Source of the DNA: Nonomuraea fuscirosea
GTDB taxonomy: Bacteria; Actinomycetota; Actinomycetes; Streptosporangiales; Streptosporangiaceae
Assembly (NCBI RefSeq): GCF_003001935.1
Contig: NZ_PVNG01000004.1
Location: 124,001-188,000, forward strand
Direction of reading: 5' to 3'
Length of the DNA stretch: 64,000 nt
Positions 56,063-62,929 of this stretch are shown piece after piece. A program made the translations under genes and the position numbers. Every line of letters starts with the position of its first letter. Positions within the stretch are counted from its first letter, which is position 1. A model generated the notes under the pieces. The model was not told the DNA's origin. It saw only the letters and a list, made by a program, of their open reading frames with translations, and did not search any database.

Positions 56063-56725
56063 TCACGTCGCGGGCCGTCCGCACGCCGGCAGATTCTCCT
56101 GGCGCACCCCCACCAGGAACTCCTCCACCCGCTCGCGGTCCGGCCGTTCGGGCAGGACGCTCGGCGTCGCGGCCAGCTCCGCCGCGAGCGCGGCCCGCCA
56201 GGCGTCCACCTCCGGCCAGGGCACCCGCCCGTTCCTGATCGCCAGCAACCGCTCCCGGTGGGCCTCCACACGGACCAGGGGCTCCCCGTGCCGCACCAGG
56301 TGCAGGCCGCTGAGCAGCAGCCGCACCATGTGCATGGCCTGCTTCCAGTTGGGCCGGCCGGGGTCGAGGCGGCGGAACTGCGCCTCGGCGTACCCGGCGA
56401 ACGACCGGTGCGCCCGCTGCGACAGGAACGCCTCGCGCAGCTCGCGCAGCCGCCGCCCGGCGGGCGTGGCCACCTCCACCAGCGGCGACCACAGGCATTC
56501 GAGCACCGTCGGGTTGGCGTCGAGGGCCAGGCCGCAGAAGCGCTCGACCTCCCAGGAGAACTGCTCGGGCAGCGGCCCGTCCCGGTGGGTTGGTGGTTTG
56601 TCCAGCCGCCAGAACGCCGAGGTCGGCGCCACGAACACGCCGCGGCGGTCGGTGTCGGAAGCGTCGGTCTCCAGCCCGTACGCCCTCGACCCCACCACGA
56701 CGGTAAGGATCACGTCATCGCTCAT
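56063..56725 (-). CDS. Nucleotidyltransferase-fold protein
   Basis: A 220-residue protein of the polymerase-beta-type nucleotidyltransferase superfamily. The core is VVVGSRAYGLETDASDTDRRGVF (GSxxxG and DxD). It is followed by a helical region with WKQAMHMVRLLLSGLHL. ATG at 56725 with GGAGG upstream. Homologues are often called predicted nucleotidyltransferases (COG3541-like, by recollection); substrate unknown. The start region is only about 20 bp from the TnpB-element left flank, so its promoter may have been altered by the insertion. Confidence 0.8.
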   Translation of the reverse strand: MSDDVILTVVVGSRAYGLETDASDTDRRGVFVAPTSAFWRLDKPPTHRDGPLPEQFSWEVERFCGLALDANPTVLECLWSPLVEVATPAGRRLRELREAFLSQRAHRSFAGYAEAQFRRLDPGRPNWKQAMHMVRLLLSGLHLVRHGEPLVRVEAHRERLLAIRNGRVPWPEVDAWRAALAAELAATPSVLPERPDRERVEEFLVGVRQENLPACGRPAT

Positions 56726-56746
56726 CGGATACCTCCGAGGAGACCC

Positions 56747-56758
56747 CGCCTTTAGGCG
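56747..56758. repeat. IS605-like end hairpin CGCCT-TT-AGGCG
   Basis: A perfect 5-bp stem with a TT loop, preceded by ACCC. Similar CCCGCCTTTAGGCG hairpins sit at IS605-family ends in general knowledge. It could be the left end of this element or the leftover right end of another. Confidence 0.5.
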
Positions 56759-56831
56759 ATTCGCCGCCAGGAGAACCGACATATCGAACAAGCGCGCGAG
56801 TTTTTCTTGATCTTTCGGTAGGATTCGAGGC

Positions 56832-58001
56832 GTGGCGCAGACCGTGAAGCGGGCTTTCAAGTACCGCTTCTACCCGACCCCCGAGCAGGCCGAAGAGCTT
56901 GCCCGGACGCTCGGCTGCGTCCGCCTCGTCTACAACAAAGCCCTGGAAGAACGGACCCGCGCCTACACACGGGAAGGCAAGCGCGTCTCCTACGTGGAGT
57001 CGTCGGCGATGCTCACGCGGTGGAAGCGCAGCGGCGAGTTCGGCTTCCTGTCCGAGGTGTCGTCGGTTCCTCTTCAGCAGGCGCTTCGCCATCTTCAGGC
57101 CGCGTTCGCGAACTTCTTCGCCAAGCGGGCCAACTACCCGGCCTTGAAGTCCCGTAAGAAGTCGCGGGCGTCGGCCGAGTACACCCGGTCGGCGTTCCGC
57201 TGGTGGGACGGCCAACTGACCCTGGCGAAGATGAACGCGCCTTTGGCGATCGTGTGGTCGCGTCCGCTGCCCGAGGGGGCGCAGCCGTCCACGATCACTG
57301 TCTCCAAAGACGCGGCCGGGCGTTGGTTCGTGTCCATCCTGGTAGAAGAGTTGATCAGCCCGCTTCCTGCCATCGCATCGAAGGTGGGGGTCGACGCCGG
57401 GATCACCGCGCTGGCCACCCTGTCCAGCGGCGAGAAGATCGTCAGTCCTTGTCACGAGCGCCGCGATCGGCGCAGACTCGCCAAGGCTCAGCGGGCGCTG
57501 GCCCGCAAGGAGAAGGGGTCGAACAACCGGGCCAAGGCCCGCCTGAAGGTGGCCCGCGCTCACGCCCGGATAGCCGACCGCAGAAGGGATCACCTGCACA
57601 AGGTCACCACACGGCTTGTTCGCGAGAACCAAGTGATCGCCGTGGAAGACCTGACCGTCCGTAACCTGGTCAAGAACCGCCGCCTGGCCCGCGCCATCTC
57701 CGACGCCGCATGGCGGGAACTCCGCTTCATGCTGGAGTACAAAGCGCGCTGGAACGGGCGGACGCTGGTGGCGGTGGACCGCTGGTTTCCCTCCAGCAAG
57801 CTGTGCTCGGCGTGCGGGGCCGTGCAGGAGAAGATGCCGCTGAACGTCCGGGAATGGAGCTGCGCGTGCGGCGCGATCCACGACCGGGACGTCAACGCGG
57901 CCATGAACGTGCTCGCCGCCGGGCTGGCGGAGAGCCGAAACGCCTGTGGAGCTGGTGTAAGACCTCAACGAGAGTCCTCTCGGGCGGGCAAGCGGCGATG
58001 A
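56832..58001 (+). CDS. tnpB: TnpB RNA-guided nuclease
   Basis: A 389-residue TnpB. The N-terminus MAQTVKRAFKYRFYPTPEQ, then CVRLVYNKALEERT, is the OrfB HTH region. The RuvC triad is complete: D188 (GVDAGITALA), E272 (AVEDLTVRNL) and D353 (HDRDVNAAMN). A zinc ribbon CSACG/CACG lies between the last two. So it should be nuclease-active and not a dead TldR-type derivative. TnpB proteins are guided by an RNA made from the 3-prime end of their own element and maintain transposons at donor sites. GTG start. Confidence 0.93.
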   Translation: MAQTVKRAFKYRFYPTPEQAEELARTLGCVRLVYNKALEERTRAYTREGKRVSYVESSAMLTRWKRSGEFGFLSEVSSVPLQQALRHLQAAFANFFAKRANYPALKSRKKSRASAEYTRSAFRWWDGQLTLAKMNAPLAIVWSRPLPEGAQPSTITVSKDAAGRWFVSILVEELISPLPAIASKVGVDAGITALATLSSGEKIVSPCHERRDRRRLAKAQRALARKEKGSNNRAKARLKVARAHARIADRRRDHLHKVTTRLVRENQVIAVEDLTVRNLVKNRRLARAISDAAWRELRFMLEYKARWNGRTLVAVDRWFPSSKLCSACGAVQEKMPLNVREWSCACGAIHDRDVNAAMNVLAAGLAESRNACGAGVRPQRESSRAGKRR

Positions 58002-58062
58002 AGCAGGAACCCTCACGGGCGACCGTGGGAATCCCTTTCCTGTGGGAAGGGGAGGATGTCAA
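57950..58062 (+). ncRNA. Omega-RNA (reRNA) scaffold of the TnpB element
   Basis: The tnpB 3-prime end overlaps three consecutive hairpins: CGAGA-GTCC-TCTCG (57969-57982), CACGG-GCGA-CCGTG with a GNRA tetraloop (58014-58027) and CCCTTTCC-TGT-GGGAAGGG (58033-58051). Then comes GAGGATGTCAA, the conserved junction before the guide. The 5-prime end of the RNA is not determined. Confidence 0.75.
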
Positions 58063-58082
58063 CCGTCCTATCTTGCGCCATG
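58063..58082 (+). other. Predicted guide segment of the omega-RNA
   Basis: Bases directly after GATGTCAA, starting CCGTCCTATC, would be the guide in the mature RNA. They are host flanking DNA 26-45 bp upstream of the prpE start. The guide would therefore recognise the empty insertion site next to prpE. Confidence 0.6.
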
Positions 58083-58107
58083 GGCCGACGGCTGTTCTGA
58101 TCGACAA

Positions 58108-59982
58108 GTGAGCGCTTATGACGAGGCATACCGGCGGAGCATCGAGCGGCCCGAGGAGTTCTGGGGCGAGGCCGCGCTCGGGATCCAGTGGGATCTCGCG
58201 CCCGCCACCGTCCACGCCGGCGGCCGCTGGTTCCCCGACGGCCGGCTCAACACCTGCCACAACGCCGTCGACCGGCACGTCGCGGCCGGTCGCGGCGCGC
58301 AGGCGGCGCTGATCTACGACAGCCCCGTCACCGGCACCACGCGCTCCTACACCTACCTGGAGCTGCTGGACGAGGTGAGCAAGGCCGCGGGCATGCTGCG
58401 CGACCTGGGCGTGGCGGCCGGCGACACCGTGGTGATCTACATGCCCATGGTGCCGGAGGCGGTGGTCGCGATGCTGGCCTGCGCCCGGCTCGGGGCGGTG
58501 CACTCGGTGGTGTTCGGCGGGTTCGCGGCCCGTGAGCTGGCCGTGCGGATCGACCACGCCAGGCCCAAGGTGGTGCTGTCGGCCTCCTGCGGGATCGAGC
58601 CGGCCCGCGTGGTGGCGTACAAACCGCTGCTGGACGCCGCGCTGGAGCAGGCCGGGCACCGGCCGGACCACTGCGTGATCCTGCAGCGGCCCGAGAGCCC
58701 GGCCGAGCTGACGCCGGGCCGCGACCTGGACTGGGTGGCGGCCGTGGGCGGCGCCGAGCCGGCCGGGTGCGTGAGCGTGGCCGCGACCGACCCGCTGTAC
58801 ATCCTCTACACCTCCGGCACCACCGGCACGCCGAAGGGCGTCGTGCGCGACAACGGCGGCCACGCGGTGGCGCTGCAGTGGAGCATGTCCCACGTGTACG
58901 GCGCCGCCCCCGGCGAGGTCTTCTGGGCCGCCTCCGACGTCGGCTGGGTGGTCGGCCACTCCTACATCGTCTACGCGCCGCTGCTGGCGGGCTGCACGAC
59001 CGTCCTGTACGAGGGCAAACCCGTCGGCACCCCCGACCCGGGCGCGTTCTGGCGGGTGGTGTCCACGTACGGGGTGCGCACGCTGTTCACCGCCCCGACC
59101 GCCTTCCGCGCCATCAAAAAAGAGGACCCATCCGGCAATTTCGCGAAAAAGTATGACCTGTCGGCGCTGCGGTACCTCTTCCTGGCCGGCGAACGGCTCG
59201 ACCCCGACACCTACCACTGGGCCTCCGACCTGCTCGGCGTCCCCGTCATCGACCACTGGTGGCAGACCGAGACCGGCTGGCCCATCGCCGCCAACAGCGT
59301 CGGCATCGAACGGCTGCCGATCAAGCCGGGCTCGCCGACCAAGGCCGTGCCCGGCTGGGACGTGCACATCCTCGACGCCGACGGCAACGACTGCCCGCCC
59401 GGCGCGGAGGGCGCGGTCACCGTCAAGCTGCCGCTCCCGCCCGGCGCGCTGCCCACCCTCTACCGCGACGACGACCGCTTCGCCCGCTCCTACCTCGACC
59501 GCTACCCGGGCCACTACCTGACGGGCGACGGCGGCCACCTGGACGACGACGGCTACCTGTACGTCATGGGCCGCATCGACGACGTGATCAACGTGGCCGG
59601 CCACCGCCTGTCCACCGGCTCGATGGAGGAGGTCATCGCCGCCCACCCCGACGTGGCCGAATGCGCCGTGATCGGCGTCGCCGACGAGGTGAAGGGCCAG
59701 CTCCCGATGGGGTTCGTGGTGCTGAAGGCCGGGTCGGAGCGCGGTCAGGAGGAGATGGAACGGGAGCTGGCCGCCCTCGTCCGCGAGCGCATCGGCCCCG
59801 TCGCCGCCTTCCGCCGCGCCGTCGTGGTGAGCAGGCTGCCGAAGACGCGCTCGGGCAAGATCCTGCGCGCCACGATGCGCGACATCGCCGACGGCAATCC
59901 GTACACCACGCCCTCCACCATCGAGGATCCCGCGGCCCTGCCCGAGATCGCCCGGGTACTGAGCGACACGGGCGGGCACTGA
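58108..59982 (+). CDS. prpE: Propionyl-CoA synthetase (PrpE-like acyl-CoA synthetase)
   Basis: A 624-residue AMP-forming ligase that activates propionate (or another short acid) to its CoA ester. PrpE-like features are EEFWGEAALGIQWD, RLNTCHNAVDRH, ILYTSGTTGTPKGVVRDNGG (P-loop), SDVGWVVGHSYIVYAPLL, WWQTETGWPI and the acetylatable lysine in LPKTRSGKILRATMR. GTG at 58108 has no Shine-Dalgarno, and the TnpB element ends only 45 bp upstream. Its original promoter is therefore probably displaced, unless it starts within the guide segment. Confidence 0.92.
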   Translation: MSAYDEAYRRSIERPEEFWGEAALGIQWDLAPATVHAGGRWFPDGRLNTCHNAVDRHVAAGRGAQAALIYDSPVTGTTRSYTYLELLDEVSKAAGMLRDLGVAAGDTVVIYMPMVPEAVVAMLACARLGAVHSVVFGGFAARELAVRIDHARPKVVLSASCGIEPARVVAYKPLLDAALEQAGHRPDHCVILQRPESPAELTPGRDLDWVAAVGGAEPAGCVSVAATDPLYILYTSGTTGTPKGVVRDNGGHAVALQWSMSHVYGAAPGEVFWAASDVGWVVGHSYIVYAPLLAGCTTVLYEGKPVGTPDPGAFWRVVSTYGVRTLFTAPTAFRAIKKEDPSGNFAKKYDLSALRYLFLAGERLDPDTYHWASDLLGVPVIDHWWQTETGWPIAANSVGIERLPIKPGSPTKAVPGWDVHILDADGNDCPPGAEGAVTVKLPLPPGALPTLYRDDDRFARSYLDRYPGHYLTGDGGHLDDDGYLYVMGRIDDVINVAGHRLSTGSMEEVIAAHPDVAECAVIGVADEVKGQLPMGFVVLKAGSERGQEEMERELAALVRERIGPVAAFRRAVVVSRLPKTRSGKILRATMRDIADGNPYTTPSTIEDPAALPEIARVLSDTGGH

Positions 59983-60097: not shown

Positions 60098-62929
60098 ATG
60101 ATCGAGACCCCGAGCTACGCCGACGCCCTGCGGATCCTCGGGTGCAAGGACGGCAGGCTCGTCAAGGTGATCGGACTGGCCTCGGCCGCCGAGCGCACCG
60201 GCTGGGCCCTGGCGGGCGGACCACGGCTGACGATGAACCTGCGCGACCTGCGCGACGGCGTCATCGCGTACGGCGAGGACGTCGTCCGCCGCATGCCGGA
60301 GCTCAAGACCGGCGTCGACCGCTTCACCCGCACCCAGCGGCTGGCCGCGGCGCACGCCGCGGTCGTCGTGGCGGCCTACTTCGAGGCGCTCGGCGAGGCG
60401 CAGCTGCCGTTCACCCTCGACCAGCTCGACCGCGGCGAGCGGATCTCCCACGGCGTGCCGACGGCCGAGCGCTTCGCCGGGCTGGTCGCCGCGCTGCTGC
60501 TGGAGCGGCTGCCCACGCCCGAGCCGCACGTGCCCTACGCCGAGACCCGTCAGGCCGTGGAACGTGCCTACCTGCGTATGTCGGACGCCTTGGGCGCTTA
60601 CGTGCGCGGACTCGCCGTCTGGGATGAGTTGTCCACCGACGACCGGCTGCTGCTGCCCCGTCTGCTCGAAGAGGGGCCGCCCGCGCACGCGCTGCGCATC
60701 TACGACGAGGACTACCGGTCGCTGGCGCTCGAGAGCCACGAGTTCGGGGTGCGCAGCCTGGTCACCGAGACGCCGCCGCCCGCCACGGCGCTGTCGAGGG
60801 TGGCCTGGCTGCTGGCCGAGCTGGCGCCGCCCCGGGTGGGCGACCGTCCCCTGATCCACCAGGTGCGGATGGCCGCCAACGCGCTCGACCGGCCGCTCCT
60901 GCTGGCCGGCAAACATCCGGAGGACGTCTCGCTGCCGCTGCTCGGCGAGGGTTACCTGAGCCCGCGCTGCCGGGTGGCCGAGCTGACCCGCGACTCCCTG
61001 CCCGCCCTGCGGAGCTGGTGGGACGACCAGCGGCTGCTCGCCGACACCGAGGCGTTCCTGGCCGGGCACCTCACCTCGCTGCGCGCCACCCAGGCGCCGC
61101 TGCTCGTGCTCGGGGAGCCGGGCTCGGGCAAGACCAAGCTGGCCGAGGTGCTCGGCGCGCGGCTGGCCAGGTCGGAGTTCCTGCCGATCAGGGTGGAGCT
61201 GCGCGCCGTACGGGCCCGCGCCGGCGTGGTCGAGCAGGTCGAGCAGGCCGTCGCGGAGGTGCTGGGGGAGGAGGTCTCCTACGCCGACCTGGTCGCGGCC
61301 GGGGACGGCGCGATGCCGGTGATCCTGCTGGACGGGTTCGACGAGCTGGTGCAGGGCGAGCTCAGCCGCTACGACTACCTGGAGCGCCTGCGCGAGTTCC
61401 AGGCCAGGGAGGCGGCGCAGGGCAGGCCCGTCGCGGTCATCGTGACCGGCCGCACGGTGGTGGCCGACAGGGTCCGCTTCCCCGCCGGGCTGCTCGCGCT
61501 GCAGCTGCAGCCGTTCGGCGACGATCAGGTACGCCAGTGGCTCGACATCTGGGACCAGGCCAACCGCGCTCTGCTCGCCCGGCGCGACCTGAAGCCGCTG
61601 CCCGCAGAGGCGGCGCTCGCGCACGGCGAGATGGCCCGCCACCCGCTGCTCCTGCTGCTGCTCGCCCTCTACGACGCCGGCGGCAACGCGCTCCAGCGCG
61701 AGCACGGGCCGCTCCAGCGGGCCCGGCTGTACGAGGTCCTGCTGCGCGACTACACCGAACGCGAGACCGGCGGCGCCCACCGCGTCGAGATCGACCAGGA
61801 GCTGGTCCTGCTCGGCGCCGCCGCCCTGTCCATGCTGGCCAGAGGCAGCCAGGTCATCACCGACGAGGCGCTCCAGCGCGACCTGCCCGCCCTGTGCCAC
61901 GGCGGCGAGGAGGAGCCGGGCGAGGAGGAGGAGCGGATCGACTGGGCCCGCAAGGCCACCGAGCGCTTCTTCTTCGTCCGCAGGAAGGGTCACGCGTTCC
62001 TGCACTCCACGTTCGGCGAGTTCCTGGTGGCCTGGCTGACCATGTACGCGCTGCGCGACCTCGACCGGCGCAGCCGCCTGGCCGGGGACGAGCCGCTGGT
62101 CCTGGCCCAGGCCGTGGACGACGACCTGCTGTACGCCGTCACCTCCCACTCGTGCCTGGCCGAACGGGGGCCGACGGTCGGCTTCATCCTGGAGCTGCTG
62201 GACCAGGTGCCCTCGGAGGTGCGGGCCCGCTGCGTGGACCTGCTGGCCGGGTTGCTGCGCCGCTCCCTGTACGAACGGCCCAGGCGGCACTTCACCGGGT
62301 TCCGCCCGGTACGCCACACGATGACCCGGCGGCTGGCCGCGTACTCGGCGAACCTCACCCTGCTCGTCGTCGCCGCCTCTGAGGAGCCCGTCCGGGTCTC
62401 CGCGATCCTGCCGGGACCCGACCCCATGGAGCGCTGGTCCTCGCTCACCCACCTGTGGAAGGGCCAGCTAGGGCAGGAGGGCTGGACCGGGCTGGTCGCC
62501 GCCCTGTCGGCGCACCGGGTGTGGGAGGGCGGGCAGGAGGACGTCGTGCTCGGCGGCGGCACCGAGCCGACCGGCATGGGGGACGTCGTCGTCGCGGTCG
62601 CCACCGGGCACGCGCCCCGCCACCGCCGGCTGCTCGACCTGCTGCTGCGGGCGCTGGGGGAGGGGCGGGCGCTGCCGTACGCCGACCGGGTCGGCATCCT
62701 GGAGGAGCTGCTGCGTACGGTCGCGGTCCGGTCGCCGGCCATGCACCAGGCCCTGGGCGCCATGTGGAACGAGGAGGGCGCCGACCGCGCCGGGCTGCGG
62801 CCCCTGCTCCAGGCCCTGCTCGCCGATCCGGCCGGGCGGATGGAGACGTGGGAGCAGCTGGTCAAGGCCGGCATCCCGGAGACGGCCCTGTGGGAGATCC
62901 ACCAGAACGCCCTCATGCCCGGCGACTGA
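60098..62929 (+). CDS. NACHT-domain STAND NTPase (bacterial NLR-like)
   Basis: A 943-residue multidomain NTPase. Residues about 1-300 form a helical N-terminal domain (SYADALRILG start) resembling the NACHT N-terminal helical (NNH) effectors or associated domains. The NACHT core has Walker A GEPGSGKT (K345) and Walker B VILLDGFDEL (D412), then sensor and winged-helix parts (RHPLLLLLLALYDAGG, FLHSTFGEFLVAWL). The C-terminal 280 residues are helical and lack LRR or TPR signatures; they may be the sensor. Bacterial NACHT proteins are known antiphage factors. No toxin or partner gene adjoins. ATG with GGGAGAAGG. Confidence 0.85.
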   Translation: MIETPSYADALRILGCKDGRLVKVIGLASAAERTGWALAGGPRLTMNLRDLRDGVIAYGEDVVRRMPELKTGVDRFTRTQRLAAAHAAVVVAAYFEALGEAQLPFTLDQLDRGERISHGVPTAERFAGLVAALLLERLPTPEPHVPYAETRQAVERAYLRMSDALGAYVRGLAVWDELSTDDRLLLPRLLEEGPPAHALRIYDEDYRSLALESHEFGVRSLVTETPPPATALSRVAWLLAELAPPRVGDRPLIHQVRMAANALDRPLLLAGKHPEDVSLPLLGEGYLSPRCRVAELTRDSLPALRSWWDDQRLLADTEAFLAGHLTSLRATQAPLLVLGEPGSGKTKLAEVLGARLARSEFLPIRVELRAVRARAGVVEQVEQAVAEVLGEEVSYADLVAAGDGAMPVILLDGFDELVQGELSRYDYLERLREFQAREAAQGRPVAVIVTGRTVVADRVRFPAGLLALQLQPFGDDQVRQWLDIWDQANRALLARRDLKPLPAEAALAHGEMARHPLLLLLLALYDAGGNALQREHGPLQRARLYEVLLRDYTERETGGAHRVEIDQELVLLGAAALSMLARGSQVITDEALQRDLPALCHGGEEEPGEEEERIDWARKATERFFFVRRKGHAFLHSTFGEFLVAWLTMYALRDLDRRSRLAGDEPLVLAQAVDDDLLYAVTSHSCLAERGPTVGFILELLDQVPSEVRARCVDLLAGLLRRSLYERPRRHFTGFRPVRHTMTRRLAAYSANLTLLVVAASEEPVRVSAILPGPDPMERWSSLTHLWKGQLGQEGWTGLVAALSAHRVWEGGQEDVVLGGGTEPTGMGDVVVAVATGHAPRHRRLLDLLLRALGEGRALPYADRVGILEELLRTVAVRSPAMHQALGAMWNEEGADRAGLRPLLQALLADPAGRMETWEQLVKAGIPETALWEIHQNALMPGD

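Follow-up and report, generated by a model that had tools for sequence, protein, structure and literature searches.

The window, by which we mean the whole stretch of 64,000 nucleotides of Nonomuraea fuscirosea analysed here (the assembly holding it comprises 12.18 Mb), contains a tnpB-only element of IS200/IS605 type between a gene for an RlaP-like protein and a prpE-like gene. The element is 1337 bp long and is located at 56726–58062 on the forward strand, with limits taken from uninserted alleles and an alignment of nine copies. Its left end lies directly against the start codon (56723–56725) of the RlaP-like gene, which runs on the reverse strand (56063–56725; Pfam PF10127, E 1.9e-34, residues 5–204 of 220), and this neighbour, rather than prpE, stands in the closer relation to the element. 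The nucleotides TCAT at 56722–56725 (forward strand), identified from the uninserted alleles, are the target and presumed target-adjacent motif (TAM) and form the reverse complement of the start ATGA. The left end (56726–56831, forward) includes, on the reverse strand, the Shine-Dalgarno-like GGAGGT (56731–56736), 5 nt before the ATG; GGAGGT or GGAGG is found there in the nine copies of the genome. It is followed on the forward strand by tnpB (56832–58001, 389 residues) and, overlapping it, the predicted omega-RNA scaffold and right end (57913–58062), with hairpins at about 57969–57982, 58012–58029, and 58033–58053. The copy alignment and the uninserted alleles place the terminus at TCAA (58059–58062, forward), which reads TTGA on the strand of the RlaP-like gene. 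The guide position (58063–58082, forward) is occupied by native DNA that lies upstream of the start codon of the RlaP-like gene. From sequence comparison, the element probably belongs, as a tnpB-only copy, to an actinobacterial family of IS200/IS605 type whose copies nest at translation starts and whose left end resembles a ribosome-binding site.

The genome contains nine two-ended copies, three with tnpB (the window copy included) and six short ones. The two further tnpB copies match the window copy at 86% and 84%. The short copies, about 340 bp each (one is L014:1537-1878), retain the two ends together with the RNA region of the right end, lack tnpB, and are possible guide donors for TnpB acting in trans. 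By eye, they share a linker that is absent from the tnpB copies. Within the genus, 42 of 54 genomes, this one included, match the short copy. Other partial matches in the own genome (C5, C15, C46, and further tnpB genes) were left out of the copy set. A scan of named genomes gave at least 543 stretches encoding a TnpB relative, and the best 80 were fetched as named loci, from Nonomuraea, Planomonospora, Microbispora, Streptosporangium, Streptomyces, Actinomadura, Micromonospora, and others. L040, L056, L083, L086, L092, and L115 were dropped because the left end could not be placed, and L105 because of its right end, leaving 82 copies (73 named loci and the nine own copies). L042, L069, L084, L093, and L114 were placed manually, as was the right end of L109, which had to be reset. 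TCAT precedes 77 of the 82 copies, with other letters at L042, L052, L069, L084, and L093. A second set consists of 15 short copies from four congeners (L227–L241), placed by BLAST; TCAT is present in all 15 and the TCAA right end in 13; at L233 and L234, the expected place holds no right end.

The ends of the element were fixed with alleles that lack it. The joined flanks of the nine own copies were searched in the 54 genomes of the genus, with few candidates scored per genome, so the results hold among the matches listed. Junction-spanning alleles without the element were found at eight of the nine own sites (29 spanning alignments in a first reading, 24 in a second), and none was found among these matches for C16. 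At seven of the eight, the right flank directly follows TCAT or another start codon (CAC, CCAT); at the eighth, C28, the two alleles read differ by 7 bases at the junction. In the window, the junctions are 56725/56726 and 58062/58063 without target duplication, so that the element starts at 56726 and ends at 58062; the alignment at this site is ambiguous by a base or two and is clear at C3, C6, and C26. The right junction is the one given in the preliminary description, and the congener alleles confirm both ends. All 18 congener alleles read at the window site are without the element; 17 have CAC and one CAT, corresponding to GTG and ATG on the strand of the gene, a pattern that fits a true start codon. 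Twelve named loci were queried over 394 genomes of the class, and spanning alleles were obtained at six (L059, L072, L096, L102, L108, and L112), with 29 spanning alignments among the matches listed; the 18 that were printed all have CAT directly before the flank. For the other six named loci, no spanning allele was found among the 30 loci examined.

All nine own copies abut the ATG of an outward gene whose frame is at least 129 codons long. By Pfam, the products are an RlaP-like protein, a protein kinase, a LacI regulator, an adenosine deaminase, a FAD enzyme, a P450, a histidine kinase, a glyoxalase, and an ABC-2 membrane protein; the ABC-2 match is below the Pfam cut-off, and the kinase frame is open at the edge of the fetched stretch. 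The Pfam domain begins within the first 19 residues in six of the nine (RlaP, Pkinase, LacI, A_deaminase, FAD_binding_3, and Glyoxalase). For the larger set, an automatic start test was used, requiring sequence that is codon-like outward and not codon-like in frame upstream; the controls were 1995 TCAT sites from the regions flanking these loci. The test was passed by 63 of the 82 copies and by 394 of the 1995 controls (Fisher p 3.7e-27). On inspection by eye, several of the failing copies resemble true starts; one is L052, at the GTG start of a short-chain-dehydrogenase-like protein. In the second set, nine of the 15 copies passed.

In the direction of the gene, a Shine-Dalgarno match of at least 4 nt occurs in the left end of 81 of the 82 copies, in several registers, although this count is partly circular, and in that measure speaks less for a ribosome site, as left ends were placed with patterns holding TCA and CTCC-like letters. 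The forms before the ATG are mostly GGAGGT at 5 nt, AAGGAG at 5 or 7 nt, and AAGGA at 8 nt. An anchor free of Shine-Dalgarno letters could be placed in 56 of the 80 named loci; 52 of these have TCAT within 34 nt upstream, compared with 718 of 13098 flank stretches (5.5%) as background, and 51 of the 52 have the Shine-Dalgarno match. CCTCCG is present in all 15 BLAST-placed short copies of the four congeners. The register varies between subfamilies, which a fixed protein-binding site would hardly do. The sequence displaced to the far side of the element has a match of at least 4 nt in 51 of the 82 copies versus 22.2 ± 3.7 in shuffles; the corresponding counts are 18 of 82 when the stretch is moved outward by 30 nt and 10 of 82 for the opposite strand. 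These controls suggest that the displaced native sequence is often the gene's own ribosome site.

Some of the entered start codons overlap the stop codon of an upstream gene. An ATGA stop/start overlap is found at 26 of the 82 copies, 21 of which pass the start test, and a TGATG arrangement at three. Counted over TCAT sites, ATGA overlaps occur at 26 of 77 element sites and at 50 of 1817 control sites (p 2.7e-19). The right end is TTGA on the gene strand and converts xxA-TGA to xxT-TGA and TGA-TG to TGT-TGA, so that the upstream gene would stop at the same codon or one later. Adaptation of the stop side to synonymous codons was considered and rejected, since the overlaps end in fourfold codons in 25 of 26 elements and likewise in 31 of 33 controls.

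The window TnpB contains the HTH_OrfB_IS605, OrfB_IS605, and Cas12f1-like_TNB domains and matches NF040570 (guided_TnpB) at 354 bits (cut-off 100). The RuvC triad D188/E272/D353, reported as intact in the preliminary description, is indeed present and is identical in all 13 aligned TnpB sequences, the window's included. The ratio of non-synonymous to synonymous substitution rates is 0.18–0.36 over 36 pairs (0.19–0.36 in the eight comparisons with the window TnpB), and by this measure tnpB is under purifying selection. The ISDra2 TnpB structures (PDB 8bf8, 8exa, and 8h1j) are homologous over residues 7–380 (E 2e-72); the sole higher score in the structure search belongs to an AI-designed nuclease, 9yyg. 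As described before, the element itself has no tnpA, and on its sequence we file it as a tnpB-only derivative of IS200/IS605 type. Two Y1 transposase genes are located elsewhere in the assembly, each beside the tnpB of another locus. A tblastn search of the fetched loci with these two TnpA proteins revealed no TnpA beside family copies, although a very divergent TnpA could escape it; matches were obtained only at L113 (2.5 kb from tnpB) and, partially, at L018 and L022, which hold other TnpB genes. As candidate sources of TnpA, the C44 element has no TCA[TC]...CTCC-like left end, and the C32 element has two matches to such a left end. The distance from TCAT to the tnpB start is 110 nt in the window copy versus 154 and 153 nt in the two sister copies. 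The 43–44 nt missing from the window left end correspond to a hairpin arm and a second palindrome, both present in the sister copies. Of the hairpins that IS200/IS605 elements have near both ends, those of the right end are supported here, and palindromes of the left end are seen by eye in relatives. With this shortened left end, the window copy may be less mobile.

The right end has three hairpins and terminates in GAGGATGTCAA, in agreement with the earlier reading of the sequence. Covariation over 38 right ends from the own and related genomes supports the RNA region, with changes on both sides and pairing kept at 16 of 33 predicted pairs. The window RNA alone folds no better than shuffles (z -0.10); single-sequence folding was therefore rejected as evidence and covariation used instead. 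No Rfam family matches at the gathering cut-off. On the covariation, a structured RNA region overlaps the 3′ end of tnpB and the right end. In this class, TnpB with a right-end RNA cuts double-stranded DNA bearing the TAM and a match to the flank-derived guide (PMC8612924). By analogy, cutting of an allele without the element should require both the TAM, presumably TCAT, and a match to the guide. The earlier proposal that an empty allele at the window site would be cut is weakened: the guide matches the uninserted site in principle, but among the congeners 17 of the 18 alleles have CAC and the lone CAT allele (L186) differs in the first guide bases. A search of the own genome for TCAT plus guide with up to three mismatches returned only the window locus, as TCAA plus guide.

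Two loci have a second unit at the start codon. In L111, the right flank starts like a second family left end, so the guide position holds left-end sequence of a kind also present behind TCAT in other copies; apparently, the start codon was entered by a second copy. In L082, a very short second unit ending in GAGGATGTCAA follows the first right end, again at the same start codon, and would be a remnant or a minimal element.

The right neighbour is a prpE-like acyl-CoA ligase gene (58108–59982, forward) with ACAS_N and AMP-binding domains and a likely GTG start at 58108; its best NCBIfam models are propionate--CoA ligases, matched below their cut-offs. The right flank does hold the guide position, as the preliminary description had it, and its assignment to the 5′ region of prpE is better given as the gap between the RlaP-like gene and prpE, with the guide ending about 26 nt before prpE. 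Without the element, the two divergent starts would be 45 bp apart (58063–58107). A stretch like ATCTTGCGCCAT is located in this gap, and most of the 18 congener alleles read share it. The RlaP-like gene, prpE, or both may be leaderless. Beside prpE, a 943-residue protein is encoded at 60098–62929 (forward), with matches to AAA and to NACHT N-terminal helical domain 7; genes for NACHT proteins can have a role in defence.

A broader reading, to which we lean only slightly, is that the family evolved to live in initiation sites. Its target and TAM would be the start codon, one of its ends a portable ribosome-binding site and the other a stop; it would enter overlapping, coupled genes and leave both readable, with TnpB homing directed at start codons across actinobacterial genomes. 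Several results weigh against the start-site interpretation. The start test was failed by 19 of the 82 copies and by six of the 15 in the second set, and L068, L069, L097, and L113 seem to be genuine exceptions, their outward frames having 11 to 37 codons. The copies are the best 80 of at least 543 scan matches and are mutually related, albeit with different flanks. The CCTCC letters might function in TnpA binding, and no TnpA with the ends of the element family was found among the candidates above. In the window, the native upstream sequence has little Shine-Dalgarno character, and the RlaP-like gene is perhaps natively leaderless. The insertion also splits this gene from its promoter side; inspection of the left end by eye gave nothing convincing as a promoter. 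Transcription is thus the weak point of the interpretation.

The strongest alternative, which we regard as possible though clearly less probable, is that these are ordinary tnpB-only IS200/IS605 elements with a TCAT target, that selection has left the insertions at starts, and that the Shine-Dalgarno-like letters serve TnpA recognition and have no role in translation. An insertion at a TCAT that lies at a start leaves coding sequence unharmed in any case, and noncoding TCAT sites should be harmless as well, so part of the start preference is expected from selection against gene damage alone, and the similar share of fourfold codons at native ATGA overlaps fits this explanation too. A cruder classification gives starts to noncoding sites as 61:6 in elements and 680:208 in controls, a modest excess (Fisher p 0.006), whereas the stricter control count of 394:208 gives p 6e-6. 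This classification is flawed, as only 31 of the 1995 controls are called inside genes, which is too few, and the start class of 680 is inflated by internal codons. We therefore rely on the start test and the count of ATGA overlaps and retain the cruder figures because they favour selection. Overlapping genes, where a plain insertion would remove the ribosome site, are enriched among the element sites rather than depleted, and the left-end motif still complements the ribosome after its shifts of register between subfamilies. A start preference beyond harmlessness is supported by these comparisons, though not beyond doubt. It is very improbable that the element has been domesticated to regulate prpE or its neighbour or to bias inheritance there, for which the purifying selection on tnpB, the closeness of the guide to prpE, and the shortened, possibly less mobile left end could be cited, since its RuvC site is intact, unlike that of nuclease-dead TldR repressors, the same architecture recurs at unrelated genes in the eight other own copies, the genome holds no further TCAT-plus-guide match within three mismatches, and the 18 congener alleles carry no element. 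The private role on prpE proposed earlier was dropped on the multi-copy survey and the missing guide matches.

If the family does nest at start codons, TnpA acting in trans would move the elements, and the left end would become the new ribosome-binding site, so that the gene behind it stays translated after insertion. The start codon would then itself be the TAM, and every guide would be native DNA preceding a gene. TnpB and its omega-RNA would cut uninserted alleles with TCAT and the guide match, holding the element's place. The short copies would be passengers without tnpB that may still make the RNA and borrow both TnpA and TnpB.

TldR proteins are nuclease-dead TnpB repressors that have lost the RuvC catalytic residues and act near gene starts. 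The window element shares with them a TnpB-derived, RNA-guided system near gene starts; in contrast, its RuvC triad is intact, on which ground TldR identity was rejected, and its guide position is a plain insertion flank. IStrons are TnpB elements that splice out of RNA. They too are TnpB elements with a way of sparing the entered gene, whereas the window family lands before the start and brings ribosome-site-like sequence. Like the tnpB-only (IS1341-like) elements and the short derivatives of PATE/MITE type, the family has tnpB without tnpA and two-ended short copies without tnpB; unlike in those derivatives, the omega-RNA region is retained in the six short own copies, all of which are located at start codons. 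ISDra2 has tnpA and the motif TTGAT, takes its RNA from the right end and its guide from the right flank, and uses the left-end target motif as TAM (PMC8612924). The window element resembles it in a homologous TnpB, a right-end RNA region, and a right flank in guide position. It differs from ISDra2 in having no tnpA in cis, a TCAT motif that is mostly a start codon, and a Shine-Dalgarno-like left end. Among the open-licence PMC papers listed, none pointed to a TnpB element located at a start codon or having a Shine-Dalgarno sequence at one end.

Why TnpB elements could grow so numerous in coding-dense genomes without crippling them is an open question, to which a start-codon family with its own ribosome-binding sequence would give a concrete and testable answer. 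If this reading is correct, the family would be a natural source of portable initiation sequences, overlapping genes of operons would be uncoupled by insertion, and there would be a bearing on genome annotation and on any TnpB tool with a TCAT TAM. Nesting at start codons with a ribosome-binding-like sequence of its own may explain how the family spread without breaking the genes it entered.
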